From the NCBI RefSeq assembly GCF_014196925.1, contig NZ_JACIEN010000003.1, positions 558,001 through 622,000 on the forward strand: a stretch of DNA of 64,000 nucleotides, written 5' to 3'. Origin of the DNA: Chelatococcus caeni. Its GTDB lineage: Bacteria; Pseudomonadota; Alphaproteobacteria; Rhizobiales; Beijerinckiaceae. Position numbers and translations under genes: made by a program. This document shows, in pieces, positions 1 through 13,970 of this stretch. How positions within the stretch are numbered: the first letter of the stretch is position 1; each line of letters opens with the position of its first letter. The notes below the pieces were generated by a model, which was given only the letters and a program-made list of their open reading frames with translations, had not been told where the DNA came from and ran no database searches.

Positions 1-1083
1 CACCAGGGCGGATTCGATGAAGGTGAAGCTCTCCGGGCTGATGAAGCCCTGGCGCGTGGCAAAGAAGGTGCCCGCGAAGCCGCCGAACATCGCCCCAATG
101 GCGAAGGCGGAGAGCTTGACGCGCGTCGCGTTCACCCCGAGCGCCCGGCAGGCCACCTCGTCCTCGCGCAGCGCCTCCCAGGCGCGGCCGATGGGCAGGC
201 GCCGCAGGCGTGCCGCGATCACCGCCGTCAGCACCACGAGCACCAGGATGAGATAGTAGAGAAACAACACCCGGTGCATGGAGGAGAAGGAGAGGCCGAA
301 GAGCTCGTGGAAGGGCACCTCGCCCTCGGGGGCCGTACGCGCGAAGGGCGCGCCGAAGAAGCTCGGCCGCGGGATGTTGGTGATGCCGTTCGGCCCGCCG
401 GTCAGCGCACCCCAGTTGATGAGGATGATGCGGATGATCTCGCCGAAGCCGAGCGTCACGATGGCGAGATAGTCGCCGCGCAGGCGCAGCACCGGAAAGC
501 CGAGGATGACGCCGAGAAAGGCGGCCATGATGCCGGCGATCGGCAGGCACATCCAGAACGAGAAGTCGTAGTAGGCCGCAAGGAGCGCGAAGGAATAGGC
601 GCCGATGGCGTAGAAGGCGACGTAGCCGAGATCGAGCAGCCCGGCGAGGCCGACGACGATGTTCAGCCCGAGGCCGAGCATCGTGTAGATGAGCACCGTC
701 GTCGCGGTATCGACGATGTAGCGGTCGGCAATCGGCAGGAAGGGCAGCGCGAAGGCGAGAAGGCAGGCCGCGACCCCGATGGCCGTCTGCGACACGAGCC
801 CGCCGCGCACCGTGCGCGCGCCGCCCTGGGCGAGGCGCCCGCGCAGCTCCCTGAGCTCGGGCCTGAACAGGGCGAGCAGGAAGCGGCCGACGGCCACGAC
901 GAGCCCGGCGATCACCACCTGGTCGAAGCGATAGACGATGCCGAGCCCCTGCCCCGGCGTCTCCTGCAGGCGAAAGCCGACGAGCGGAAGCGCGATGCCG
1001 ATCATGATGATGCCGGCGATCGCCGCCTCGCGCAGCGCTGCGCGCAGCCTGTCGGTGACCGGGGAAGCGGAGGAGGCTTGCAT
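1..1083 (-). CDS. livM: Branched-chain amino acid ABC transporter permease LivM (C-terminus cut by window edge)
   Basis: Inner-membrane permease of a Liv-type (HAAT) importer, working with the LivH and binding protein encoded just upstream. About 361 codons are visible from an ATG at 1083; the 3' end lies beyond base 1. The first ~80 residues form the long N-terminal extension with two hydrophobic segments seen in long LivM proteins. The family core follows, with GLGLNIVVGLAGLLDLGYVAFYA-type sequence around residues 137-160 and LRGDYLAIVTLGFGEI around 201-216. It lies 83 bp downstream of the binding-protein gene on the same strand, so it is probably co-transcribed; livG and livF are expected past the left edge. 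The substrate is inferred from the family only. Confidence 0.93.
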   Translation of the reverse strand, partial: MQASSASPVTDRLRAALREAAIAGIIMIGIALPLVGFRLQETPGQGLGIVYRFDQVVIAGLVVAVGRFLLALFRPELRELRGRLAQGGARTVRGGLVSQTAIGVAACLLAFALPFLPIADRYIVDTATTVLIYTMLGLGLNIVVGLAGLLDLGYVAFYAIGAYSFALLAAYYDFSFWMCLPIAGIMAAFLGVILGFPVLRLRGDYLAIVTLGFGEIIRIILINWGALTGGPNGITNIPRPSFFGAPFARTAPEGEVPFHELFGLSFSSMHRVLFLYYLILVLVVLTAVIAARLRRLPIGRAWEALREDEVACRALGVNATRVKLSAFAIGAMFGGFAGTFFATRQGFISPESFTFIESALV

Positions 1084-1166
1084 CGCGGGCTCTCGATGCC
1101 GACGGAATTCAGGAAGGCGGCAGATGAAGGAAACGGAGCGGGCCGGCGGCCCGCTCCGGCAAAGGA

Positions 1167-2270
1167 TCAGAGCTTCGTCGGCGCATAGGCGCCGTCGCGC
1201 CACTCGAAGATGACGTATTCGGGGTCGATGAGGTCGCCCTTGGCGTCGAAGCGGAAGGTGCCGACCACCGTCTCGAAACCGTTGGCGCGCAGGTCCGCGG
1301 CCACCGCCTCGGGCTCCTTGCCAGCCCGCGCGACGGAATCGGCCAGCGCCTGCACGGCGGCATAGTAGTAGAAGGCGAAGTTGTCCGGCTCGCCGCTCTT
1401 CTTCAGCTCCTCGTAGACGCTCTGGGCCGAAGGCTTCGCCTTCACGTCGGCGCTGAAGGTGAAGAGCGTGCCCGCCCCGCCCTCGCCGGCGATGGACCAG
1501 AACTCGTTGGTGGCGAGGCCGTCCGCGCCGACGAAGCGCGTCTCGAGGCCGGCCTGGCGCGCCTGGCGCACGATGAGGCCGAGCTCGGTGTGATAGCCGC
1601 CGTAATAGACGACATCGATGCCCTCCTGCTTCAGGCGGGCGACGAGGGCCGAGAAGTCTCGCTCGCCCGCGTTGACGGAGCCTTCGTAGGCGGGCTTCAC
1701 GCCGGCCTCGGCGAGCGTCTTCTTGGCCGCCTCGGCAAGACCCTGGCCATAGACCTGCTTGTCGTGGACGATGGCGACCTTCTTGTCCTTGAACTTCTCG
1801 GCGATGTACTTGGCCGCGACGACGCCCTGCTGGTCGTCGCGGCCGCAGGCCCGGAAGACGAGCTTCATGCCGCGCTCGGTCAGCTCCGGCGAGGTCGCCG
1901 AGGCGGTCATCATCAGGATGCCTTCCTCGTCATAGACGCCGGAGGCGGCGATCGAAGCGCCGGAGCACAGGTGGCCGACGACGAAGCGGATGCCCTTCGA
2001 CACCACCTGGTTGGCGGCGCTCACCGCGCTCTTGGGGTCGCACTGGTCGTCGGCGATCTCGAGCACGAGCTTCTCGCCCTTGATGCCGCCCTTGTCGTTG
2101 ATGGCCTTCACCGCGGCCTCGGCGCCGAGCCGCGCCTGGGCGCCGATGGCGGCGATCTGCCCGCCGGTGGCGGGGATGCCGAGGGCGAAGGTCACGTCCG
2201 CCCGCGCGGGCGCCGCCGCCAGAAGCGCGGCGGCACAGGCGGACAGCATCAGTTTCGTCATCGCATTCAT
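1167..2270 (-). CDS. livJ: Branched-chain amino acid ABC transporter substrate-binding protein (LivJ/LivK family)
   Basis: Periplasmic type I binding protein of 367 residues. A Sec signal peptide (MNAMTKLMLSACAAALLAAA, predicted cleavage after ARA near residue 24) precedes the mature sequence starting DVTFALGIPATG. The DDQCDP and GHLCSG motifs supply the cysteine pair that forms the conserved disulfide of LIV-binding proteins. The SASATSP-like ligand-loop region (MMTASATSPELT) and the AIVHDKQVYGQG segment are typical of the family. It lies between livH and livM on the minus strand, an ordinary Liv operon arrangement. Leucine, isoleucine or valine are likely ligands, but related amino acids or amides cannot be excluded. 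Confidence 0.93.
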   Translation of the reverse strand: MNAMTKLMLSACAAALLAAAPARADVTFALGIPATGGQIAAIGAQARLGAEAAVKAINDKGGIKGEKLVLEIADDQCDPKSAVSAANQVVSKGIRFVVGHLCSGASIAASGVYDEEGILMMTASATSPELTERGMKLVFRACGRDDQQGVVAAKYIAEKFKDKKVAIVHDKQVYGQGLAEAAKKTLAEAGVKPAYEGSVNAGERDFSALVARLKQEGIDVVYYGGYHTELGLIVRQARQAGLETRFVGADGLATNEFWSIAGEGGAGTLFTFSADVKAKPSAQSVYEELKKSGEPDNFAFYYYAAVQALADSVARAGKEPEAVAADLRANGFETVVGTFRFDAKGDLIDPEYVIFEWRDGAYAPTKL

Positions 2271-2330
2271 GGTCTTTCCTCCCTTAACCGCCCCGTCCGG
2301 CAGCGCCGGCGGTGCGCAGGTCTCGCGCGC

Positions 2331-3245
<915 letters not shown>

Positions 3246-3323
3246 GGCGTTTCCCCCCTTTTATTATGCGGCCTTATGAGCTGCCACGAGACTACTCGCG
3301 GCCCGCGCTTTTGCAAGAGGATG

Positions 3324-3340
3324 GGTCAGTGCAACTGACC
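3324..3340. promoter_or_regulatory. Inverted repeat GGTCAGT-GCA-ACTGACC upstream of livH
   Basis: A perfect 7-bp inverted repeat with a 3-bp centre lies between the fumarylacetoacetate-hydrolase family gene and livH, about 80 bp upstream of the livH start. It is not followed by a T-run on the minus strand, so an operator fits better than a terminator. The TGGTC...GACC core resembles sites bound by FadR-subfamily GntR repressors. That identification is inference, and no regulator gene lies nearby. Confidence 0.4.
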
Positions 3341-3441
3341 AACACCGCATGTGCAAGGCACCAGCCGGCTGCCTAGAGGAGCATTCCCGCCGCCACGAGG
3401 CAATGGGCGCAGGTGTCTGGCGCAGCCTTCGCCGATCGCTC

Positions 3442-4152
3442 TCAGGCTCCGTCGGGCGAAGACGGCTGCGTGATCGTCACCGTCAGCGGCGTGAGGCCCG
3501 CAATCGTCGCCTCGATGACGTCCCCCGGCACCACCGCCCCGACGCCGGCCGGCGTCCCCGTCATGACGAGGTCGCCGGGCTCCAGCCGGTAGAAGCGCGA
3601 GAGGATGGACAGCATGGGCGCCACCGGCCAGATCATGTCGGCGATGTCGCCGCGCTGGCGCGTTGCGCCATTGACCTTGAGCTCCATCGCCGCGCGCTCG
3701 AAGGGGCCCATCTCCGCGGCCGGCGTGATGGCGCCGACCGGCGCCGACTGCTCCACGTTCTTGGCGAAGTCCCACGGCCGGGCCAGATCCTTCGCCGCCG
3801 CCTGCAGGTCGCGCCGCGTCATGTCGAGGCCGACGGCATAGCCGAAGACGATCTTCGCCGCCGCTTCCTCGTCGAGGTCCTGCCCCGCCCCGTCGATGGC
3901 GACGACCATCTCGAGCTCGAAGTGATAGTTCTTCGTCTGCCGCGGATAGGCGATCTCGCCGCCCCCCGGCACCACCGTCTCGGCCCATTTGGTGAAGAAG
4001 AAGGGCGGCTCGCGGTCCGGGTCGCGCCCCATCTCGCGTGCGTGCTCGGCGTAGTTGCGCCCGACGCAGAACACGCGGCGCACCGGGAAGCCGGCCTCGC
4101 GGCCGACCACGGGAATGACGGGCGTGGGCGGCAGGGCGAACAGCGTCTTCAT
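3442..4152 (-). CDS. Fumarylacetoacetate hydrolase family protein (fumarylpyruvate hydrolase-like)
   Basis: Metal-dependent C-C bond hydrolase of 236 residues, the short single-domain FAH form. The metal ligands are visible as E79-x-E81 in NYHFELEMVVAI and D110 in GYAVGLDMTRRDLQ. The segments CVGRNYAEHAREMG and EPPFFFTKWAE match short FAH enzymes such as fumarylpyruvate hydrolase and the hydrolase/decarboxylases of aromatic catabolism. The C-terminal PGDLVMTGTPAGVGAVVPGD is the family signature. It stands alone between livH and ribA, with no aromatic-pathway neighbours, so the true substrate (acylpyruvate or oxaloacetate-like) is unknown. Confidence 0.88.
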   Translation of the reverse strand: MKTLFALPPTPVIPVVGREAGFPVRRVFCVGRNYAEHAREMGRDPDREPPFFFTKWAETVVPGGGEIAYPRQTKNYHFELEMVVAIDGAGQDLDEEAAAKIVFGYAVGLDMTRRDLQAAAKDLARPWDFAKNVEQSAPVGAITPAAEMGPFERAAMELKVNGATRQRGDIADMIWPVAPMLSILSRFYRLEPGDLVMTGTPAGVGAVVPGDVIEATIAGLTPLTVTITQPSSPDGA

Positions 4153-4248
4153 CGGCGGCCTCTCGGAATCGTCGCAACGCCCCTGCTATAGGCCATGGAC
4201 AAGGGCGCGTCGACGCCCGCCGGCGGCCGACCGGGCCGGAACGAAGAA

Positions 4249-4276
4249 CGCCGACGGACCGTGAGGTCTGTCGGCG
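4249..4276 (-). terminator. Probable terminator downstream of ribA
   Basis: Two 12-bp arms (4249-4260 and 4265-4276) pair with one G.U/A.C mismatch around a 4-nt loop. On the minus strand the stem is followed by TTCTTCGTT. It begins about 30 nt after the ribA stop codon, the expected place for intrinsic termination. Confidence 0.5.
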
Positions 4277-4307
4277 CCGTTGCTCTAGGCGAGGTGCCCT
4301 CGCCCGG

Positions 4308-5417
4308 TCAGTCGCGCGGCGGCAGATGCGCCGACAGCGCGTCGATGTCGATGAAGTGGCCGGCACGCTCGCGCTTGGCCGCGAGATAGCGGATGTTCTC
4401 GCTGGTCGGCCGGCCGATCACGCGCTGCTCGTCGACGACGGCAAGGCCCGCCGCCTTCAGGGCCGCGATCTTCTCCGGGTTGTTGGTCATGATGCTGACG
4501 CTCGCGACGCCGAGCTGGCGCAGCATCTCGGCGGCAAAGTCGAACCGGCGCTGGTCGAGCCCGAAGCCGAGGATCTCGTCCGCGTCATAGGTGTCGAAGC
4601 CCTGCGCCTGCAGCTTGTAGGCGCGCATCTTGTTGGCGATGCCGTTGCCGCGCCCTTCCTGGTCGAGATAGAGCAGGATGCCGCCGCCGTTCTCCGCCAT
4701 CCACTGCACGGTATTGCGCAACTGGTCGCCGCAGTCGCACTTGAGGCTGCCGAAGAGGTCGCCGGTGAGGCAGGCCGAGTGCAGGCGCACCGGCACCGTC
4801 TGCGCGAGGTCCGGCCGGCCGACGACGATGGCCACCTGGTCGCGCAGCCCCTCGCCGCCGCGGAAGACGACGAACTCCGTCTCGCTGGCCCCCTCGAGCG
4901 GCACCGGCGCGCGCCCGACGATGCGCAGCGAACGCACCTGGCTGCGGCGGAAGGCGGCGATGTCGTCTTCAGAGACGGCCACCACATCGGCCAGCGCCGG
5001 ATCCTCCGCCGAGACCGACACGGTGACGACCGCCGGCAGGACGAGCGACAGGCGCGCGAGTTCGAGCGCCGCCTCGTCGAGCGGCTGCAGGCAGCCGACG
5101 GGCGCATCAAGCCGCGCATCGCTCGCGAGCGACAGATGCATCACCCGCCGCAGGTCGATCTCGGGCAGGGCGATGATGCCGGCGCTCGCCCGTTCCGCCC
5201 CGAGGCGCCGCAGGCGCGCCGTTGGCAGCACGAGCCGGGCCCGATCGGCCGCCTTGCGCTCCAGCGCCGCCGCGAGTTCCTCGTCGAGGCCCTCGATCCC
5301 CACAGCCAGCACCGACGTGCCGCGCCCGGTGATGCGGACCGGGCGGCCTGCACGGAACTCCGCCAGCGCCCGCTCGACGCTGATCTGGCCGCGATCCTTG
5401 ATAAAATCTGAACTCAT
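4308..5417 (-). CDS. ribA: GTP cyclohydrolase II, long alphaproteobacterial form
   Basis: Converts GTP to 2,5-diamino-6-ribosylamino-4(3H)-pyrimidinone 5'-phosphate, formate and pyrophosphate, the first committed step of riboflavin synthesis. The 369-residue protein has an N-terminal domain of about 165 residues and a GCHII domain. The N-terminal domain lacks the acidic DDEDREN-type motif of DHBP synthase. The zinc ligands are C216, C227 and C229, in SACLTGDLFGSLKCDCG. The LDQEGRGNGI motif (251-260) and DTYDADEILGFGLDQR (275-290) follow. The ATG at 5417 was chosen because it begins the conserved N-terminus; an in-frame ATG at 5441 is possible. It diverges from the RibD-domain gene at 5652, with a small palindrome ACACATGTGT at 5492-5501 between them. 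No FMN riboswitch was recognised, and this copy may serve the neighbouring cluster rather than bulk flavin synthesis. Confidence 0.92.
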   Translation of the reverse strand: MSSDFIKDRGQISVERALAEFRAGRPVRITGRGTSVLAVGIEGLDEELAAALERKAADRARLVLPTARLRRLGAERASAGIIALPEIDLRRVMHLSLASDARLDAPVGCLQPLDEAALELARLSLVLPAVVTVSVSAEDPALADVVAVSEDDIAAFRRSQVRSLRIVGRAPVPLEGASETEFVVFRGGEGLRDQVAIVVGRPDLAQTVPVRLHSACLTGDLFGSLKCDCGDQLRNTVQWMAENGGGILLYLDQEGRGNGIANKMRAYKLQAQGFDTYDADEILGFGLDQRRFDFAAEMLRQLGVASVSIMTNNPEKIAALKAAGLAVVDEQRVIGRPTSENIRYLAAKRERAGHFIDIDALSAHLPPRD

Positions 5418-5651
5418 CGGCGGTGAACTCTCGTGGGCCATAGCTCTGTGGCCGTGAAATCTGCCGGTCCTCACGAACCGCAAAACATGCGACACATGTG
5501 TATTGAAACGAGGTCCGGCAAGGTTCTTCCTGCTGCGCGACGGCTGATATGTCTCCTGCGGCGCCGGCCATGCCATGGCGGCACGGCCGTTGCGGATGTA
5601 TGAACAGGGCATGCCTTCGACGAACGACGATGCCCCACCCGGCGGGAAACC

Positions 5652-6452
5652 ATGCAGCAGCAAGAGGGCCCTGTGACCACACCCGACGAGATGGACGGGA
5701 GTTCCACGCCGGTGGATTGCTTATCACATCGCGCGCTTGCGCGCATAGCCGATGTACCGGAGGGCGCCAGCCTCGTCGTCGCACAGCTCGGACAGTCGCT
5801 CGACGGGCGCATCGCGACGCCGACGGGTGATTCCCGCTACATCAACCGCGCTGCGGCGCTCGACCACCTCCATCGCCTGCGGGCGGCCGTCGATGCGGTC
5901 GTCGTCGGCGTCGGCACGGTCATCGCGGATGATCCGCAGCTCACCGTCCGGCGCGTTGCCGGCCGCAACCCCGCCCGCGTCGTGCTCGACCCGCGCGGGC
6001 GCCTGCCGCCGGACGCCCGCTGCATGACGAGCCCGGACGCGCGGCGCCTCGTGGTGGGCGGCGCCTCCGTCCCGCGCCCGGCCGGGGTCGAGGAGGTCGT
6101 CCTGCCGCTTGCCGGCAGCCGGCTCGATCCGCACGCCATCGTCGCGGCGCTCGCCGCCCGCGGGCTACGCCGCCTGCTGATCGAGGGTGGCGCGCGCACC
6201 ATCTCGGCCTTCCTCGATGCCGGCTGCATCGACCGGCTGCACCTCCTCGTCGCGCCCATCATCATCGGCTCGGGACGGGCCGGGCTCGAGCTTGCGCCCA
6301 TCGGCCCGCTAAGCGAGGCGCTCAGGCCGGCAACCGACATCTATCTGCTTGCCGACGGGGACGTTCTGTTCGACTGTGACATGAGGCGCCGCAACGTGGA
6401 GGCCAGCCTTGTCGCCGAGACCGATGCACGAGGGTTACGGCCCGGCGGCTAA
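5652..6452 (+). CDS. RibD C-terminal (reductase) domain protein, stand-alone
   Basis: A 266-residue protein of the dihydrofolate-reductase-like fold used by the reductase half of RibD. The NADPH and substrate motifs are visible: AQLGQSLDGRIATPTGDS (about 44-61), VVVGVGTVIADDPQLTVR (about 83-100) and LLIEGGARTISAFLDAG (about 176-192). The zinc deaminase domain of bifunctional RibD is absent. Predicted activity is NADPH reduction of the ribosyl side chain of a pyrimidine intermediate to ribityl, which would act after the product of the divergent ribA. The start is uncertain: ATG 5652 or GTG 5673, the latter behind an AAGAGGG sequence. Its 3' end overlaps the cytochrome b561 gene by 44 bp. Confidence 0.88.
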   Translation: MQQQEGPVTTPDEMDGSSTPVDCLSHRALARIADVPEGASLVVAQLGQSLDGRIATPTGDSRYINRAAALDHLHRLRAAVDAVVVGVGTVIADDPQLTVRRVAGRNPARVVLDPRGRLPPDARCMTSPDARRLVVGGASVPRPAGVEEVVLPLAGSRLDPHAIVAALAARGLRRLLIEGGARTISAFLDAGCIDRLHLLVAPIIIGSGRAGLELAPIGPLSEALRPATDIYLLADGDVLFDCDMRRRNVEASLVAETDARGLRPGG

Positions 6453-6960
6453 GTGGCTGCACTGGCTCACCGCCCTCGCCATCCTGACCACGATCCCGCT
6501 CGGCATCGCCATGGTCAACGCGGCGCCGGGCCCGACGCAGAACACCCTCTACGACCTGCACCGCTCCTTCGGCGTCACGGTGCTCACCCTGGCGGCCGTG
6601 CGCCTTTCGGTCCGCCTCGTGCGCGGAGCGCCGGCGCCCCATCCCTCGCTCGGCCGCCTGCTGCAGATCCTGTCCCTCACGGTGCACCGGGCGCTCTACG
6701 TGCTCATCTTCCTGGTGCCGCTGCTCGGCTGGGCCGGGACTTCGGCCTTCGGGGCGCAGATCACGGTCTTCGGCCTCTTCGTGCTGCCGCCGATCCTCCC
6801 CAAGGACGAGGCCCTGTCGGAGACGCTGCTCGGCCTGCACAAGCTCGCCGCCTTCACGCTGGCGGCGCTCGCGACCCTGCATATCGGCGCCGGCCTCTGG
6901 CACGGCTTCGTGCGCCGCGACGGGGTGCTGGAGCGGATGCTGCCTGCCCGCCGCTACTGA
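6409..6960 (+). CDS. Cytochrome b561 family membrane protein
   Basis: Four-helix di-haem membrane protein of 183 residues related to CybB/b561. Histidines suited to haem ligation lie in AAKWLHWLTA (helix 1), DLHRSFGV (helix 2), TVHRALYVL (helix 3), and GLHKLAAF and LHIGAGLWH (helix 4). It probably moves electrons between quinol and a redox partner in the inner membrane. The preferred start is TTG at 6409, because GGAGG at 6398-6402 sits 6 nt upstream; an internal ATG at 6424 lacks such a site. The gene begins inside the end of the RibD-domain gene, implying translational coupling. It meets the methyltransferase gene tail to tail with a few bases of overlap. Confidence 0.88.
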   Translation: MSPRPMHEGYGPAAKWLHWLTALAILTTIPLGIAMVNAAPGPTQNTLYDLHRSFGVTVLTLAAVRLSVRLVRGAPAPHPSLGRLLQILSLTVHRALYVLIFLVPLLGWAGTSAFGAQITVFGLFVLPPILPKDEALSETLLGLHKLAAFTLAALATLHIGAGLWHGFVRRDGVLERMLPARRY

Positions 6961-7808
6961 TCGTCTGACGTCGGCACGGCGAGGAGATCGGCGTGACCGA
7001 CAAGGCAGCGCGATGCCTGAGCACGTGCAGCGCGCCAGGCGGCGAGCCGGTCCGCCGCCACCTGTCCGGTCTCGCCCACCGCGGCAGCCGTGCCGTCGGC
7101 GAGCATCGCGACGAGCGCCCGTTCGCGCTCGGTCAGTCGCCAGGGGCTCGCCGCCTCGCTGACGGTATAGCCCGCACCACGAAAGCCGCCCGCGAGAAGC
7201 CCGGTTGCACGCGGCCCGGCCGCCGGACCGAAGCCCTTGTCGCGCTGCTGGTGGGCGAGGAAAGCGCCGTGCACCGCCTCGTCGTCCGGATGAGGCGGCT
7301 CCCAAGCCTCCCGGCCGTCGTAGGTCAGCGCCGTATAGAAGGGCAGCCTTGCCGCCGCGACCGCCTGCACGAAGGCCTCGATCCACGCCGGCGACACGAG
7401 ATCGAATAAGGCGGCCGCCGTCACGAGATCGGTGGGCACCACGAGAAGCGGCCCGATCCCGTCGGAAAGGTCGTGCGCGATGAAGGAAACCGCGACGCGC
7501 CGCCCGGCGGCGGACAGCACCAGGCCACCGGCATCCTCGGCGAGGGTCGCATCGGCCCAGCGGCGCAGTTCCTCGCGCGCTTTCGCGAGCAGGAGGACAT
7601 CGTGATCGACGAGCCGCCAGTACTGCTCCGGGCCGAGCTGTGGCGCCGTCGCCCGGAGGTTGGACCCCGTGCCGCAGCCGAGATCGAGGACATGCACCGG
7701 CTGCCGGTCCGCCACCGCCGCGGCGGTCGCAGCCAGGAGATCGCGGTTGCGCGCCGCATGGTCGGCCGGCTCGCGCAGGGCGAGCCATTCGGCGGAAAAG
7801 CCGCTCAC
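6954..7808 (-). CDS. Class I SAM-dependent methyltransferase
   Basis: A 284-residue protein with a Rossmann methyltransferase motif I, HVLDLGCGTGSNLR (about 39-52), and a following acidic region (RLVDHDVLLLAKAREEL). The substrate is unknown. GTG at 7808 is taken as the start because it overlaps the stop of the upstream glycosyltransferase (GTGA, 7805-7808), the usual coupling arrangement; the frame is open much further upstream but only as a shadow. It is the last gene of a tight minus-strand run: dehydrogenase, PTPS-like protein, GT4, methyltransferase. It probably methylates the product of that cluster, as an inference from context only. Confidence 0.87.
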   Translation of the reverse strand: MSGFSAEWLALREPADHAARNRDLLAATAAAVADRQPVHVLDLGCGTGSNLRATAPQLGPEQYWRLVDHDVLLLAKAREELRRWADATLAEDAGGLVLSAAGRRVAVSFIAHDLSDGIGPLLVVPTDLVTAAALFDLVSPAWIEAFVQAVAAARLPFYTALTYDGREAWEPPHPDDEAVHGAFLAHQQRDKGFGPAAGPRATGLLAGGFRGAGYTVSEAASPWRLTERERALVAMLADGTAAAVGETGQVAADRLAAWRAARAQASRCLVGHADLLAVPTSDDQ

Positions 7809-8866
7809 GCCGCCCTCCCCCGTCCGGCCAGCGAGCGGACGACGCCGGCGATCGCGGCCGCGGCATCGTCCCAGCGCGGCAGCGCCTGTCCCGCATGCCA
7901 GGCGGCATCCGCCATGGCCGAACGCCTCTCCCGGTCGCCAAGGACCGTCTCCAGCGCTGCGGCAAGGGCAGCCGCATCGCCCGGCGGCACCTTGAGCCCG
8001 GCGGCATCGGGCACGCGCTCGTCCGCCGCCCCGACGCGCGTCGTCACGACGGGCAGGCCGCGCGCCAGCGCTTCCGTCAGGACCATGCCGTAGCCCTCGT
8101 AATGCGATGCCATGACGAAGAGGTCGGCGGACGCGTAGGCGCGCTCCAGCGCCGCGTCGTCGCAGGCGCCGGCCAGCGCGATGCGCCCGGAAAGACCCGC
8201 CCCGGCGATCAGCGCCCGCAGCCGCGCCGCCTCCTCCGGCGCACGGTCGAGGCTGCCGACGATGGTGGCACGCCACGGCAGCGTGGAAAGGCGCGCGAGC
8301 GCCGCGACAAGAACGTCATAGCCCTTGCGCGGCGAGACGGCCCCGACGGCGATGAGATGCGGCGGCTCGCCATCGGCGGGCGCGCGAGAGGCCGGATCGG
8401 TGCCCGGTTCCGCGATCGTCAGCCGATCGGCGGCAACACAGAACTCGCTCGCGAGCACCCGGCCCGTCGGCACGCTCGTCGCGACGACGGCATCGACCGC
8501 CGCAAGCGCCGCACGCTCGCTGGCGAGGAGCTGCCGCCGCGCCGCGTCGGAAAGGCCGGTCTCATGGCCGAGCGGATGGTGCACCAGCGCCACGCACCGC
8601 CTGCCGCAGCCGCGCAGCAGGGAGGCCGGCAGGGCGCCGCAGGCGAGCCCGTCGATCAGGAGCACGGCGTCGCGCGGCGTAGCCGCGAAGGCCGCCGCGG
8701 TTGCCGCAAGCTCGGCATCGGTCGGAAAGGGAAAGCCCGCCGCCAGTGGCAGGTGGACGATGTCGACGCCCTGCGCCGGCAGGTCGTTGAGCATCCGTCG
8801 CGCATAGGCGTAGCCGCCCGTCGGGCTGGCGAGGTCGCCCGGAATGGCGAAGACGACGTCAGGCAC
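7805..8866 (-). CDS. GT4-family glycosyltransferase
   Basis: GT-B fold retaining glycosyltransferase of 353 residues. The N-terminal half carries GYAYARRMLNDL. The C-terminal half has LIAVGAVSPRKGYDVLVAAL and the donor-binding E-x7-E motif in HYEGYGMVLTEALARGLPVV, both typical of GT4. The start is GTG at 8866, overlapping the end of the PTPS-like gene by 8 bp; the end overlaps the methyltransferase start by 4 bp. Pterin glucosyltransferases of cyanobacteria are also GT4 enzymes, so glycosylation of a pterin- or pyrimidine-like compound is possible here. The neighbourhood suggests this; the sequence alone does not prove it. Confidence 0.88.
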   Translation of the reverse strand: MPDVVFAIPGDLASPTGGYAYARRMLNDLPAQGVDIVHLPLAAGFPFPTDAELAATAAAFAATPRDAVLLIDGLACGALPASLLRGCGRRCVALVHHPLGHETGLSDAARRQLLASERAALAAVDAVVATSVPTGRVLASEFCVAADRLTIAEPGTDPASRAPADGEPPHLIAVGAVSPRKGYDVLVAALARLSTLPWRATIVGSLDRAPEEAARLRALIAGAGLSGRIALAGACDDAALERAYASADLFVMASHYEGYGMVLTEALARGLPVVTTRVGAADERVPDAAGLKVPPGDAAALAAALETVLGDRERRSAMADAAWHAGQALPRWDDAAAAIAGVVRSLAGRGRAA

Positions 8867-9266
8867 GGGCCACCGGCCCCTCGAACCACGCCCGGGCCAC
8901 GTGGCTCTCGTGCAGCGTCACGCGGATGTGATCGATGCCCTCCCCGCCCGGCCCGAGCGCGCCGCCGCGCGCCGCCTCCGCCATCGCATCGAAGATATGA
9001 CGGCTCAGGAATTCCGTCGTCGTGTTGCGGCCCGCGAACTGCGGCAGGTCGTCGAGGTTGCGGTAGTTGAGCGGCGAGAGCACCGCCTTCAGCGCCTCGT
9101 GGGCGCGGCCGATGTCGACGACCACCCCCTCCGACGTCAGCTCCTTCCGGAAAAAAGCCACATCGACGATGAAGGTCGCCCCGTGCAGGGCCTGCGCCGG
9201 CCCGAACAGGTCACCGCGGAAACTGTGGGCGATCATGACGTGGTCACGAACCTCGACGGCATACAT
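8859..9266 (-). CDS. PTPS/QueD-fold protein with degenerate active site
   Basis: A 135-residue member of the 6-pyruvoyl-tetrahydropterin synthase / 6-carboxy-tetrahydropterin synthase fold. Family landmarks are recognisable: AHSF with H14, LHGATF with H28, GVVVDIGRAHEALK (47-60), LNYRNLDDLPQF (66-77), and TTTEFLS with E85. Against the canonical enzymes, the HGH zinc motif reads H28-G-A30, so one zinc ligand is missing. The catalytic cysteine ahead of HGH is absent, and the D-H of the triad reads N67-Y68. The two glutamates that usually bind the pterin (E85, E120) look retained. This argues for a pterin-like ligand but altered chemistry. The start ATG is well supported by GAGGGAGGG just upstream. 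Confidence 0.85.
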   Translation of the reverse strand: MYAVEVRDHVMIAHSFRGDLFGPAQALHGATFIVDVAFFRKELTSEGVVVDIGRAHEALKAVLSPLNYRNLDDLPQFAGRNTTTEFLSRHIFDAMAEAARGGALGPGGEGIDHIRVTLHESHVARAWFEGPVARA

Positions 9267-9290
9267 GGCACCCTCCCTCGATCGGACTTG

Positions 9291-10289
9291 TCATTGATAG
9301 CGCACCGCGGTCATCAGCCCGCCCGCCTCCTCGTCGAGGATGGCGGGCAGCGCCTCCGGCAGATCGGCGAAGGCGACCTCGCCGGTGATCAGGTCGTCGA
9401 GCCGCGCGTCGGCGAGCAGGGAGAGCGCCTTCGCAAGGCGCCGCCCTGCCTCCCAGCGCGGACGGCGCGAGGCCGCGACCTGCCCGACCTGCGAGGACAC
9501 GAGCCTGAGGCGCCGGGCGTGGAACTCGCCGCCGAGGTGAACCGGCACCGCCTCGTCCCCGTACCAGCTCAGTTCGACGAGCATGGCCTCGTCGCCGCAC
9601 AGCGTCAGCGCCGTCGCGAGGCCGGCCGGCGTGCCGCTGGCATGGAAGACGACGTCCGCCTCCCCCGGGGCCTCACCCGGCAGGGCGAAACCGGCGCCGA
9701 AACGCCGCACCACCGCCGCGCGCGACGGGTCGGTATCGACGACGGTCACCTCCGCACCGGGCAGGCCGGCACACAGGAACGTGACCAGGAGGCCGACGAC
9801 GCCGGCCCCCACCACCGCAATCCTGTCCCCCGGTCCCGCCCCGGCGTCCCAGACGGCGTTGAGCGCCGTCTCCATATTGGCGGCGAGCACGGCCCGGCGG
9901 GCGGGCACGGCTTCCGGCACCGCGGCGACGGCGGCGGCCGGCGCGGCGAACATCTGCTGATGCGGGTGCAGCGCGAAGACCGTGCGGCCGACGAGATTTG
10001 CCGGCCCGGCCTCCACCAGGCCGACGGCGCAATAGCCGTATTTCACCGGGAACGGAAAGGTCCCCTCCTGCATCGGCGCGCACATGCGCCGGCGATGGCT
10101 CCGGCGGCACAGGCCGTTGAAGACGAGGCGCTCCGTGCCGCGGCTGATGCCGCTGAACAGGGTGCGGACCATGACGTCTCCGGGCCCGGGCTCGATCGGC
10201 GCGACGGGACGCAGTTCGGTGCGGCGCGGCTCCACGTACCACAGTGCGAAAATGCCGGAACCCTCGCGGTTCCTTGCGTTAATGCCCAT
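9291..10289 (-). CDS. BchC-like medium-chain dehydrogenase/reductase
   Basis: A 332-residue MDR-family NAD(P)-dependent oxidoreductase. The N-terminal segment FSGISRGTERLVFNG and PVKYGYCAVGLVEAG resemble the BchC/zinc-ADH-like branch. The Rossmann motif is VVGAGVVGLLVTF (about 178-190), followed by the acidic strand end VVDTD. The GHE zinc motif and the structural-zinc cysteine cluster of classical alcohol dehydrogenases are not seen, so a zinc-independent mechanism is likely. No photosynthesis genes are present nearby, so a bacteriochlorophyll role is unlikely. It is first in the minus-strand cluster and diverges from opgH with 56 bp between them, 24 bp ahead of the PTPS-like gene. Confidence 0.85.
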   Translation of the reverse strand: MGINARNREGSGIFALWYVEPRRTELRPVAPIEPGPGDVMVRTLFSGISRGTERLVFNGLCRRSHRRRMCAPMQEGTFPFPVKYGYCAVGLVEAGPANLVGRTVFALHPHQQMFAAPAAAVAAVPEAVPARRAVLAANMETALNAVWDAGAGPGDRIAVVGAGVVGLLVTFLCAGLPGAEVTVVDTDPSRAAVVRRFGAGFALPGEAPGEADVVFHASGTPAGLATALTLCGDEAMLVELSWYGDEAVPVHLGGEFHARRLRLVSSQVGQVAASRRPRWEAGRRLAKALSLLADARLDDLITGEVAFADLPEALPAILDEEAGGLMTAVRYQ

Positions 10290-10345
10290 CGCACTTCTCT
10301 TCGTTTTGCTCTATATCGCCGCGGCGCGACAGCGGACGGTGCCAG

Positions 10346-12175
10346 ATGACGGAACGGCTCGATCCTGTGACCCTGACTCTCATCGAGGGGTCACCCTCCT
10401 CATCTACGACACCGGGCGGAATGCAGTCCACCACCGCGCTGCGGCGGCGCCGGACCCTGATGGGCGTGCTGAACCTCGCCACCTGCGGCGCTCTCGCCGC
10501 GGCCATGGCATGGATCCTCTCCGCCGGCGGGTGGAGCCTTCTCGACGGCCTCCTCCTCGCCTGCTTTCTCCTCGTCATGCCCTGGACCGCGCTCGGCTTC
10601 TGGAATGCCGCCATCGGCCTGTGGCTGCTGCATGGCCGGCGCGGGGCGCTTGCGGAGGTCGCGCCCTTCGCCAGCGCCGGCACCTCGGGCGAGGCCGTCT
10701 TCCTGCGCACCGCCGTGCTGATGACGTTGCGCAACGAGGATCCGGCCCGCGCCTTCTCGCGCCTCTCGGCCGTCGCCGAGAGCATCGCCCGCACCGGGCA
10801 CGGGCACCACTTCGCCTATTTCGTCCTGAGCGACACCTCCCGTCCCGAGATCGCCGCCGCCGAGGAGGAGGCCTTCGCGGCCTTCCGCGCCACGCTCGCG
10901 GATGGTGCCAGGGCCGTCTATCGCCGGCGTGAGGACAATGTCGGCTACAAGGCCGGCAACCTGCGCGATTTCTGCGCCCGCTGGGGCGGCGAGTACGAGC
11001 TGATGCTGCCGCTCGATGCCGACAGCCTGATGGCGGGCGAGACGATCGTCGCCATGGTGCGCATGATGCAGGCCTATCCCCGCCTCGGCATCCTGCAGAG
11101 CCTCGTCACGGGCATGCCGGCCGCGAGCGGCTTCGCGCGCATCTTCCAGTTCGGCATGCGCCACGGCATGCGGCCCTACACCATGGGAAGCGCCTGGTGG
11201 GCCGGCGATTGCGGGCCCTTCTGGGGCCACAATGCGCTCGTGCGCATCGCGCCCTTTCGCGACGACTGCCATCTCCCGCTGCTCCGCGGCCGCCCCCCGC
11301 TCGGCGGCTCCATCCTGTCGCACGACCAGGTCGAGGCCGCGCTCATGCGCCGCGCCGGCTACGAGGTGCGCGTCCTGCCGGTCGAGGGCGGCAGCTGGGA
11401 GGAGAACCCGCCCACGGTCATGGATTTCGTCCGCCGGGACCTGCGCTGGTGCCTCGGCAACATGCAATACGCCAGGCTTCTTGGCCTGCCGGGCCTCCAA
11501 CCGATGAGCCGTTTCCAGCTCCTGTGGGCCATCCTGATGTTCTTCGGCCTGCCGGCCATGACGGCGATGATCGCGCTGTCGCCCTTCGCGGTGCGCGAGG
11601 CACAGGCGGCCGGCGCCTTCCCGACGGCCCTGGCGGCCGGCCTCTACAGCCTTTTCCTGTTCATCTGCCTCTTTCCCAAGCTCGCCGGCCTCGCCGACAT
11701 CGCGCTGACGCGCGGCGGGCTCGCCCGCTACGGCGGCGGGGTGCGCTTCGGCCTCTCGGCCGCCATCGAGATCGTCTTCGCCTTCCTGCAGGGGGCGGTC
11801 TCCTCCTTCCGCACCAGCCTCTTCATGCTCGGCCTCCTCGCCGGGCGGGCACATGTGGGCTGGAACGGCCAGGAGCGGGATGCCCATGCCCTGTCCTGGG
11901 CGACGGCAGCGGCCGGGCTGTGGCCGCAGACCCTGTTCGGCCTTGCCGTCTGCGGCGCGCTGGCCTGGGCCTCGCCGGCCGCCCTCCTGTGGAGCCTGCC
12001 GCTCACGGCGGGCTACCTTCTCGCCATCCCCTTCGCCGTCGTCACGGCGCGGCCGGCGTTCGGCGCATTCCTCGCGCGGCATCGGCTCTGCGCCATCCCC
12101 GAGGAATTCGACGAGCCTGCCGAGATCGCGGCCCTCGCACGCCCGGCACCGCAGCCGGTGGCCGTCGCCGCATGA
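10346..12175 (+). CDS. opgH: Glucans biosynthesis glucosyltransferase H
   Basis: Inner-membrane GT2 processive glucosyltransferase of 609 residues that makes the beta-glucan backbone of osmoregulated periplasmic glucans. After two N-terminal membrane segments (about 40-95) the catalytic domain shows D224-x-D226 (PLDADSLM), GHNALVRIAPF, and LSHDQVEAALMRRAGYEVR. The product-binding motif is seen as RRDLRWCLGNMQYA. Further membrane helices occupy the C-terminal third. It is shorter than E. coli OpgH (about 850 residues), as is common in alphaproteobacteria. ATG 10346 is taken as start; ATG 10421 is an alternative. OpgG, its usual partner, is not visible. Its stop overlaps the FkbM gene start (ATGA). 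Confidence 0.92.
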   Translation: MTERLDPVTLTLIEGSPSSSTTPGGMQSTTALRRRRTLMGVLNLATCGALAAAMAWILSAGGWSLLDGLLLACFLLVMPWTALGFWNAAIGLWLLHGRRGALAEVAPFASAGTSGEAVFLRTAVLMTLRNEDPARAFSRLSAVAESIARTGHGHHFAYFVLSDTSRPEIAAAEEEAFAAFRATLADGARAVYRRREDNVGYKAGNLRDFCARWGGEYELMLPLDADSLMAGETIVAMVRMMQAYPRLGILQSLVTGMPAASGFARIFQFGMRHGMRPYTMGSAWWAGDCGPFWGHNALVRIAPFRDDCHLPLLRGRPPLGGSILSHDQVEAALMRRAGYEVRVLPVEGGSWEENPPTVMDFVRRDLRWCLGNMQYARLLGLPGLQPMSRFQLLWAILMFFGLPAMTAMIALSPFAVREAQAAGAFPTALAAGLYSLFLFICLFPKLAGLADIALTRGGLARYGGGVRFGLSAAIEIVFAFLQGAVSSFRTSLFMLGLLAGRAHVGWNGQERDAHALSWATAAAGLWPQTLFGLAVCGALAWASPAALLWSLPLTAGYLLAIPFAVVTARPAFGAFLARHRLCAIPEEFDEPAEIAALARPAPQPVAVAA

Positions 12176-12939
12176 GCAGGCTCGGCGCCACCTTGACCGA
12201 ATGGCGCGGGCTCGCCCGCTCCCTCGTCCTCTATCACGGCAACCGCGCCCGCCATCGCGCCATGGATGCGCTCCACCGCCGCTTCCTCGCCCCCGGGGAC
12301 CTTGCCTTCGACATCGGCGCCCATGTCGGCGACCGGACTTCGTCCTTCCGCCGCATCGGCGCGCGTGTCGTCGCGGTCGAGCCGCAGCCGGGGCCGATGC
12401 GCCTCCTGCGTCTCGTCCATGGCCGCGACCGGGACGTGACCCTCGTCGAAGCCGCCGTCGGCGCGGCGGAGGGAACTGCCGAACTCCACGTCAACAGCGC
12501 CAATCCCACCGTCACCACGGCCTCCGGCGCGTTCCTCGCCGCCGCGCGCGATGCCGATGGCTGGCGCGAGCAGCGCTGGGACCGCACCCTGTCGGTGCCG
12601 ATGACGAGCCTCGATGCGCTGATCGCCCGCCATGGCCTGCCGGCCTTCGTCAAGATCGACGTCGAGGGCTTCGAGGACGCGGTCCTTGCCGGGCTGTCGC
12701 AGCCGCTGCCGGCGCTGTCCTTCGAGTTCACCACCATCGCCCGCGACGTCGCCGGGCGCTGCCTCGACCGGCTCGCCGATCTCGGCCGCTACCGCTTCAA
12801 CCTGTCGCTCGGTGAGGAGCAGCGCCTCGCCTTCGCCGAGCCGGTCGCTGCCGAGGCGATGCGGGACCATCTCGCCGCATTGCCCCATCGCGCCAATTCG
12901 GGCGATGTCTATGCGACGCTCGCTGCAACGAGGCCCTGA
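12172..12939 (+). CDS. FkbM family methyltransferase
   Basis: A 255-residue SAM-dependent O-methyltransferase of the FkbM type. Motif I is LAFDIGAHVGDRTSSFRRIG (about 43-62), followed by the acidic VVAVEPQP and the FkbM-specific PAFVKIDVEGFEDAVLAGL near residues 160-178. The ATG at 12172 overlaps the opgH stop by four bases (ATGA), so translation is coupled. This placement suggests methylation of a sugar or substituent on the periplasmic glucan, or of a related envelope glycan; that is an inference from context. It is followed after 35 bp by a secreted protein gene on the same strand. Confidence 0.88.
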   Translation: MSRLGATLTEWRGLARSLVLYHGNRARHRAMDALHRRFLAPGDLAFDIGAHVGDRTSSFRRIGARVVAVEPQPGPMRLLRLVHGRDRDVTLVEAAVGAAEGTAELHVNSANPTVTTASGAFLAAARDADGWREQRWDRTLSVPMTSLDALIARHGLPAFVKIDVEGFEDAVLAGLSQPLPALSFEFTTIARDVAGRCLDRLADLGRYRFNLSLGEEQRLAFAEPVAAEAMRDHLAALPHRANSGDVYATLAATRP

Positions 12940-12974
12940 GCGGCAGGAAACCGCCTTTTTTCACAGGACAACGC

Positions 12975-13970
12975 ATGTCGAGAACCATTCGGGGCCTGCT
13001 CGCCGCAGGCCTTCTTGCCGCCGCCATACCCTCCGCCGGCGCTGCCGAGCTTGCCGCCCGTGTCGACAACGGCAGCGAGCCCGTGCTGTGCGCCGAGAAG
13101 GACAACGTCAGCCTCACCTTCACCAATCCGGCCGTGAAGCACTTCCGCATCCAGGCGGTGCACCCCGTCTATCTCGGCATGCTCAACACGGACCGCTGGG
13201 CGGCCGACTGGACGAGCTGCGACATGGAGGGTGACCCCGTGCATGTGGCCGAGCCGCGCCGCGTCACCTTCTATGAAGCGCCCGACCTGTGGCTGGTCGG
13301 CTATACTTATCCCTCCTTCTGGCGGCCCAACGACGTGCCGGTGCGCGTCGGCGACCGTGTCGAGCACGGGCTGCACCTCCTCCAGGTCTGGGTGCGCTAC
13401 AAGGAGCGCGCCGAGGAAGTGCTCGTGCTCTACCCGCCGGACGGCTACTGGCGGGCCCGCCCCATACCACCCGGCGACATGCGCTGGACGGCCTACGGCA
13501 GTTCCTTCCTCGTCGGCCCCGTCAAGGACGAGGGGCGCCCGATCGTGGCGCTGAAGGACATCGCCTTCGATCCCGCGACGCGGACCTTCACGCTCGCCTT
13601 CGCCGACGGCGGCGAGGGCAAGGTCCGGCTCGCCGCCCTCGACGAGGAGCACGTCGCGCTCGACGTCTCCTTCTCCGGCGACCTGCCGCAGGGCAGGCCC
13701 TTCGCGGCGCTGCGCTCGATGTATGTGATGGAGGCCAATTCCGACACGGCACGCGTCGCCTGGCGCGCGCCCGGCGCCAAGGGCTGGGGCGAATCCCCGG
13801 TCATGACCTTCCCGGGCGGCGAGGCGACGGAGCTGTGGACCGGACGCGTCGTGCCCTCGCGTCACAATACCAGTGCACCGGACATGATCTTCGGGCGTTT
13901 TTCGGACGTCCCGCCGAAGCCGGACAAGCGCGACACCGTCCCGAAGGAAGCGGCGCCCCTGCCTCAGTAG
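12975..13970 (+). CDS. Secreted protein of unknown function, linked to opgH
   Basis: A 331-residue predicted periplasmic protein. The N-terminal signal peptide (MSRTIRGLLAAGLLAAAIPS, cleavage near AGAAE at about 24) is clear; no later membrane segment is seen. The mature part is rich in beta-type alternation and contains two cysteines that could pair (CAEKDN and SCDMEGD). It ends in a Pro/Lys-rich tail. No family was recognised. Its position in an opgH-fkbM-x run suggests a part in glucan handling, perhaps taking the place of OpgG or OpgD in the periplasm. Its 3' end overlaps that of tamB by 7 bp in convergent orientation. Confidence 0.78.
   Translation: MSRTIRGLLAAGLLAAAIPSAGAAELAARVDNGSEPVLCAEKDNVSLTFTNPAVKHFRIQAVHPVYLGMLNTDRWAADWTSCDMEGDPVHVAEPRRVTFYEAPDLWLVGYTYPSFWRPNDVPVRVGDRVEHGLHLLQVWVRYKERAEEVLVLYPPDGYWRARPIPPGDMRWTAYGSSFLVGPVKDEGRPIVALKDIAFDPATRTFTLAFADGGEGKVRLAALDEEHVALDVSFSGDLPQGRPFAALRSMYVMEANSDTARVAWRAPGAKGWGESPVMTFPGGEATELWTGRVVPSRHNTSAPDMIFGRFSDVPPKPDKRDTVPKEAAPLPQ

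Follow-up and report, generated by a model that had tools for sequence, protein, structure and literature searches.

What would be made by a cluster in which enzymes of riboflavin type stand beside a pterin-type fold, a glycosyltransferase and a methyltransferase? The question is raised by a locus of Chelatococcus caeni at positions 4308-10289 of the 64,000 nucleotides analysed here (contig NZ_JACIEN010000003.1, positions 558,001 to 622,000; below, the window). Pfam and NCBIfam scans together with the listing of open reading frames gave all seven families that the first-pass annotation had seen packed into this interval, in partly overlapping genes. They are GTP cyclohydrolase II (RibA2), a stand-alone RibD reductase domain (RibD2), cytochrome b561, a methyltransferase (MT), a GT4-type glycosyltransferase (GT4), a protein of the 6-pyruvoyl-tetrahydropterin synthase fold (PTPS-like) and a BchC-like dehydrogenase (DH). 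We give an even chance to the reading that they form a dedicated pathway, distinct from that of riboflavin and ending in a 2-amino-4-oxo-pyrimidine or pterin that is glycosylated and methylated. The gene content, its conservation, the single RibD2 clade, the residue losses and a gene fusion are direct observations, and from here on the reactions and the product are worded as deductions.

Conservation of the gene set

The gene set is common to many soil and plant-associated bacteria and is conserved well outside the genus. An even draw of 398 genomes by phylum contained 27 with a PTPS-like gene, called at E 1e-15. Within 8.5 kb of this gene lay DH in 27/27, GT4 in 26/27, MT in 25/27, RibD in 23/27 and RibA in 12/27. 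Further neighbours at the same distance were a CDP-alcohol transferase (12/27), an LPG_synthase_TM protein (11/27), MdoH (11/27), FkbM (9/27), cytochrome b561 (8/27) and creatininase (6/27). The hidden Markov models used for these counts were retrained on the fetched loci, the 27 included, and absences are upper bounds because some stretches stop at contig ends (L168, L176; L, G and C numbers label loci, genomes and contigs).

Among 60 relatives the cluster was present in 23, and the loci were inspected for all 23. RibD2, defined here as a stand-alone RibD_C frame scoring over 115 bits, with stand-alone matches below 86 bits left out, occurred in 14 of the 23 relatives with the cluster and in none of the 37 without it (Fisher p 5e-8). 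RibA2, counted as PF00925 matches of 159-181 bits with six higher matches (189-241 bits) and all lower ones left out, was found in 22/23 and 6/37, respectively (Fisher p 5e-10); the latter figure may be too high, because the genome G009 is incomplete (78%) and the contig of G033 starts in a 49-residue GT4-like fragment beside RibA. The first-pass annotation had proposed to look for the genes together in whole genomes, and both samples place the set far outside the genus.

In a set of 30 PTPS-family loci (2.3-3.4 kb), 18 (L001-L018) matched no window protein and scored higher with PF01242; these are presumably QueD-type. At the remaining 12, GT4 and MT adjoin the PTPS-like gene in all cases and DH in 11, the exception lying at a contig end. 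Because GT4, MT and DH recur in this way at 12 loci, the association is not a matter of chance. Gene order and flanks do vary and the cluster is found on plasmids, as unrelated genes thrown together by accident or by plasmid hitch-hiking would be, but such an origin is highly improbable: the set recurs across Actinomycetota, Alpha- and Gammaproteobacteria, GT4 and MT are fused in some genomes, and the 27/398 sample with its neighbourhood counts already contradicts it.

A scan with the window proteins alone showed the cluster in the same arrangement in many of the best 80 named contigs, which as best matches are biased to near kin. They include Methylobacterium, Xanthobacter, Azorhizobium, Microvirga, Roseibium and Stappia, the closest being Chelatococcus sambhunathii with a PTPS-like protein 97% identical. 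Plasmid records add Methylosinus trichosporium, Agrobacterium, Thiodictyon, Palleronia, Streptomyces and Microbacterium.

Relation to riboflavin synthesis

The cluster shares RibA and the RibD reductase domain with canonical riboflavin synthesis, and these are its only genes of riboflavin type. The first-pass annotation had remarked that deaminase, lumazine synthase and riboflavin synthase are missing, and this holds; RibB is likewise absent from the cluster genes, so that the RibD deaminase, RibB, RibH and RibE that accompany RibA in a riboflavin biosynthesis operon are not found in it. A canonical nrdR-ribD-ribE-ribH-nusB operon, whose RibD has a deaminase domain, lies elsewhere in the genome (L133).

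In the tree of 43 reductases one branch (100/99) set 27 RibD2, drawn from Actinomycetota and Proteobacteria, apart from 14 riboflavin RibD domains, including those of Streptomyces, E. coli, Bacillus and Deinococcus, and from two archaeal reductases. An earlier tree of 58 sequences, with riboflavin RibD only from the order to which Chelatococcus belongs, separated 37 RibD2 from 21 RibD (branch 100/100). RibD2 is thus one dedicated clade, separate from riboflavin RibD and from the archaeal reductases.

For the cyclohydrolase the separation is less clean. RibA2 matches PF00925 and scores 530.6 bits with PRK08815 (cut-off 464). It keeps the CLTGDLFGSLKCDCG and RAY motifs, and its zinc cysteines, catalytic Tyr and Arg region are presumably the functional residues; family and intact active site together argue for a GTP cyclohydrolase II (GCHII). 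The RibBA of Chelatococcus (L131) has a GCHII domain without the zinc cysteines and active-site region, and a third homologue in the genome (C2:524202) keeps the cysteines and is distant in sequence. Judged on these residues, RibA2 is the sole clearly canonical GCHII of the genome. Because RibBA has lost its GCHII site and six of the 37 cluster-free relatives keep RibA2, RibA2 may also feed riboflavin.

The idea of a second, canonical set of riboflavin genes outside the cluster has therefore stood only in part: the ribD-ribE-ribH operon exists and RibD2 is extra, but the GCHII domain of RibBA is dead and RibA2 is the only clear GCHII. The first-pass annotation would have given up its pathway had the set not been conserved or had these been the sole riboflavin genes of the genome. 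Neither is the case for RibD2, and RibA remains ambiguous.

RibA2 and RibBA look like mirror remnants, RibBA being without the RibA site and RibA2 having a vestigial N-terminus that resembles RibB (hhalign E 1.3e-4, probability 54%).

A family of 35 genomes (f1; G016, which has another GCHII, set aside) bears on the supply of riboflavin. A creatininase match of at least 210 bits was found in 11/11 of its genomes without RibA2 vs 12/24 with RibA2. A formamidase route through BrbF, a creatininase-family protein, is reported to serve riboflavin synthesis in Sinorhizobium (PMC9478397). The f1 pattern fits a riboflavin route of this type that replaces GCHII, and suggests that genomes without the route can draw on RibA2 for riboflavin. 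Chelatococcus itself combines RibA2 with a high-scoring creatininase (C8:143164).

The f1 pattern and the dead GCHII domain of RibBA are what would be expected if the cluster boosted riboflavin dosage or made secreted flavin precursors, its other genes modifying riboflavin or lumazine. That the cluster serves riboflavin in this way is nevertheless quite unlikely, since deaminase, RibB, RibH and RibE are missing from it, RibD2 is a clade of its own that never occurs without the cluster in the 60 relatives, and riboflavin synthesis as known makes no use of PTPS-like, DH, GT4 or MT.

The PTPS-like protein

The genome has a single PTPS-family match, the PTPS-like protein. The profile of this protein matched SCO6650 of Streptomyces coelicolor (PDB 3d7j) with E 1.3e-53 over profile positions 1-131, that is over the whole length, with HGATF and LNYRNLD common to both, and it matched human PTPS (3i2b) weakly. 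SCO6650 is reported to lack zinc and PTPS activity and to have a pterin-like pocket. In the alignment with 3i2b the places of the catalytic Cys, Asp and His are held by Ala24, Asn67 and Tyr68, Ala30 stands where the HGH zinc motif has its second His, and the Thr-Thr-Glu stretch is kept.

Residues were counted in 135 rows (131 distinct sequences, L152 and L153 left out). Place 24 is Ala in 134 and Gly in one; place 68 is Tyr in 123 and His in none; place 67 is Asn in 114 and still Asp in two. A30, T84, E85 and E120 are found in 135/135 and T83 in 133/135. By this alignment the catalytic Cys, the catalytic His and one zinc His are lost in all 135 sequences. For the identity of the catalytic residues, and for the binding of the pterin ring by Thr-Thr-Glu and the C-terminal Glu, we assume what holds for PTPS in general.

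The loss of the catalytic Cys and His and of one zinc ligand would also suit a regulator of the operon enzymes that acts as sensor or scaffold without catalysis, with DH, GT4 and MT acting on a sugar and not on a pteridine. PTPS-like genes without the cluster, seen in 2/9 of the first records examined (L152 and L153, Streptomyces plasmids), agree with such a role, but the steady company of DH (27/27) and RibD (23/27) makes it distinctly unlikely.

The set recurs in Hyphomicrobiales (among them Methylobacterium, Xanthobacter and Microvirga) and extends to Streptomyces, and related genes in annotated plasmid records are named as the 6-carboxytetrahydropterin synthase of queuosine synthesis or as 6-pyruvoyl-tetrahydropterin synthase. 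For the window protein the QueD model TIGR03367 gave 36.7 bits vs a cut-off of 89.25, with HGA in the zinc motif and Ala, Asn and Tyr at the catalytic places. The Cys-Asp-His triad and the three zinc His of the PTPS of tetrahydrobiopterin synthesis are incomplete. The NCBIfam cut-off does not back this naming for the window protein.

The genes at L152 and L153 are of the same PTPS-like type, and one of them lies beside a gene with a MEKHLA domain; the fold may also be put to other uses.

Dehydrogenase, glycosyltransferase and methyltransferase

The best NCBIfam match of DH is BchC (TIGR01202), and because its 46.4 bits fall far under the cut-off of 291.25 the protein is called only BchC-like. 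The glycine-rich NAD(P) motif is invariant in 17 DH sequences and there is no invariant Cys. A predicted model (pLDDT, the predicted local distance difference test score, 89) matches polyol and secondary-alcohol dehydrogenases, as any member of the superfamily would. The MT profile gave no match in a sequence search of the PDB, and the predicted MT fold (pLDDT 96) matches many unrelated methyltransferases.

GT4 and MT are fused into a single protein of about 650 residues in six of the 27 sampled genomes (L172, L175, L177, L179, L189, L190), which belong to the same phylum and another class; Pfam agrees for L172. Because of this fusion the two enzymes probably act in consecutive steps. Pteridine glycosyltransferases have been described (PMC5683033), and no entry so named is among the best 60 of the 87 PDB matches of the GT4 profile.

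The PDB matches of GT4 do include PimA and MshA-type enzymes. Together with the CDP-alcohol phosphatidyltransferase (12/27) and LPG_synthase_TM (11/27) neighbours, which also lie beside the cluster in Streptomyces, Microbacterium and Agrobacterium plasmids, they could point to a membrane lipid whose head group would be a ribityl-pyrimidine or pterin, joined to lipid by the transferase, glycosylated by GT4 and flipped by the LPG-type membrane protein. Such a product is unlikely: neither gene is near the window cluster, where MdoH and cytochrome b561 stand in their stead; the similarity of GT4 to PimA and MshA is, moreover, generic.

The proposed pathway

In the dedicated pathway RibA would open GTP to 2,5-diamino-6-ribosylamino-pyrimidinone phosphate. 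RibD2, as a reductase-only domain, would reduce the ribose to a ribityl chain with the 2-amino group kept, and DH may oxidise a secondary alcohol of this side chain. The PTPS-like protein could hold the 2-amino-4-oxo ring through Thr-Thr-Glu and the C-terminal Glu and promote ring closure, giving a dihydropterin. If RibD2 first reduces C1' and DH then oxidises C2', the outcome would be the very ketone at which FolE arrives by rearrangement, and this ketone could close on the 5-amino group. The product would then be decorated by GT4 and MT, and cytochrome b561 with MdoH, elsewhere the CDP-alcohol transferase with the LPG-synthase-type protein, may serve its export or membrane attachment. A route through the undeaminated diaminopyrimidine is suggested because the deaminase-free reductase and the kept ring-binding residues of the PTPS-like protein point the same way.

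A FolE-independent pterin route, in which C2' is re-oxidised by DH and the ring is closed by a PTPS fold without its usual catalytic residues, is a tentative proposal that we regard as doubtful. Similar doubt attaches to the speculation that its product would be a new class of glycosylated, methylated pterin (a cofactor, pigment, export signal or lipid head group) in Actinomycetota and Proteobacteria. If the pathway is real, a route to pteridines would have gone unrecognised, one that has a reductase clade to itself and a PTPS fold that works without the usual catalytic residues, and it would give a home to two studied, unplaced Streptomyces proteins, SCO6650 and SCO6655.

Several results weigh against the dedicated pathway. 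In the stretches read, MT is absent from 2/27 neighbourhoods, GT4 from 1/27, RibD from 4/27 and RibA from 15/27, and RibD2 is absent from nine of the 23 cluster genomes among the relatives. The archaeal-reductase model TIGR01508 gives no separation, scoring RibD2 at 111 bits and the riboflavin RibD domain at 119. Distances among PTPS-like, DH, GT4, MT and RibD correlate (r 0.72-0.83, 60 loci), for which common descent alone could suffice. Two relatives without the cluster, G034 and G035, have RibA2 adjoining a homologue of the protein at 12975-13970; no part of the stretch from MdoH to RibD2 lies between the two or anywhere else in 18 kb (L146, L142). RibA2 is present and the creatininase match absent in both. 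Loss of the unit would give this arrangement, as would its later gain elsewhere.

Of the two Streptomyces clusters, L180 has DH, PTPS-like, GT4, MT, RibD and RibA, and L151 has the same genes except RibD, of which there is none in the 20 kb examined. The 57 cluster RibA rows, which include some near-copies, have Met at the Tyr switch place only in these two; 49 of the others match the Tyr pattern, five have Tyr in a slightly different context and L071 has a gap. Both Met-type RibA adjoin a creatininase-family gene. SCO6655, with Met, reportedly makes a formylated intermediate; if so, an adjoining formamidase would restore the usual product. Four proteobacterial clusters (L172, L174, L175, L190) have a Tyr-type RibA together with creatininase. 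Six further plasmid-borne relatives of the creatininase from Streptomyces are in unrelated contexts, away from RibA and PTPS-like genes. Because of these six, the link between Met switch and creatininase rests on the two Streptomyces clusters and some weaker cases.

Comparison with known systems

No pathway that we could name fits the gene set, as the first-pass annotation had also found. The window PTPS-like protein belongs to the SCO6650 family. In S. fungicidicus RibA comes five genes after the PTPS-like gene, a spacing in keeping with the SCO numbers; that RibA has the Met switch. It differs from the window RibA, which keeps Tyr and has no adjoining creatininase. To our knowledge no product is known for SCO6650 and SCO6655.

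The cyanobacterial and Chlorobium pterin glycosides also bring a PTPS-fold protein and a sugar transferase together. Their route enters through FolE, whereas entry here would be through GCHII and a ribityl reductase, and the PTPS site is altered. The BrbF route resembles the cluster in the creatininase-family gene, which is beside RibA in the two Streptomyces clusters and near six of the 27 sampled ones; in Sinorhizobium that route serves riboflavin (PMC9478397), and the window cluster has no creatininase. A review from 2026 on pterins as signals in bacteria (PMC13259868) states that it is not clear which pterin PruR binds in vivo.

The toxoflavin, deazapurine, F420 and methanopterin pathways were considered and set aside, no search being aimed at their signature genes. 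Ribofuranosylaminobenzene phosphate synthase and its partners in tetrahydromethanopterin synthesis are not named in the annotation tables, in which no aimed search for them was made. Titles and opening parts of abstracts among the literature matches listed hold no description of this gene set, a scope outside which most subscription papers fall.

Gene layout and neighbouring genes

The conserved neighbourhood (Table 1) extends past 10289 to the divergent MdoH-like gene, which corrects the earlier bounds. DH, PTPS-like, GT4 and MT, all on the minus strand, follow each other with a 24-base gap, an 8-base overlap and a 2-base gap. RibD2 and cytochrome b561, which overlap by up to 44 bases, diverge from RibA2, and cytochrome b561 and MT are convergent with a 7-base overlap. 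RibA2 probably starts near 5417 rather than at the TTG of the full open frame.

Table 1. Genes of the cluster and its flank, in window coordinates
Product	Positions	Strand	Remark
RibA2, GTP cyclohydrolase II	4308..5663	-	zinc and active-site motifs intact; N-terminal part vestigial, RibB-like
RibD2, pyrimidine reductase domain alone, no deaminase	5652..6452	+	clade apart from riboflavin RibD
Prokaryotic cytochrome b561	6409..6960	+	overlaps RibD2 end
MT, class I S-adenosylmethionine-dependent methyltransferase	6954..7802	-	weak Methyltransf_25 match
GT4-type glycosyltransferase	7805..8866	-	Glycos_transf_1 match
PTPS-like protein, SCO6650 (3d7j) type	8859..9266	-	PTPS match, 76.5 bits
DH, BchC-like medium-chain dehydrogenase	9291..10289	-	glycine-rich NAD(P) motif
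MdoH/OpgH-like glucosyltransferase	10346..12175	+	divergent from DH
FkbM-type methyltransferase	12175..12939	+	recurrent neighbour
Probably secreted protein (reading of N-terminus)	12975..13970	+	without Pfam match

An Rfam scan of positions 1-16000 gave no match and a promoter scan found no sigma-70-like sites. Terminator-like sites numbered 5 vs 2.6 in shuffled sequence, which gave nothing useful, and the tRNA scan found one tRNA only, distant from the cluster.

The MdoH-like gene is a frequent neighbour of the cluster in Hyphomicrobiales. Six cluster genomes have RibA away from the cluster, and at the four of these loci that were examined (L147-L150) cytochrome b561 is near RibA in all. Such lineage-specific membrane genes suggest export or membrane attachment of the product; a link of the FkbM-type methyltransferase to the pathway is uncertain.

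The protein at 12975-13970 is often kept near the cluster, and adjoins RibA in two relatives without it. A PfkB-type sugar kinase adjoins two Rhodobacterales versions of the cluster (L156, L159), and L156 also has an inositol-monophosphatase-family gene, which together with the kinase hints at possible kinase and phosphatase steps.

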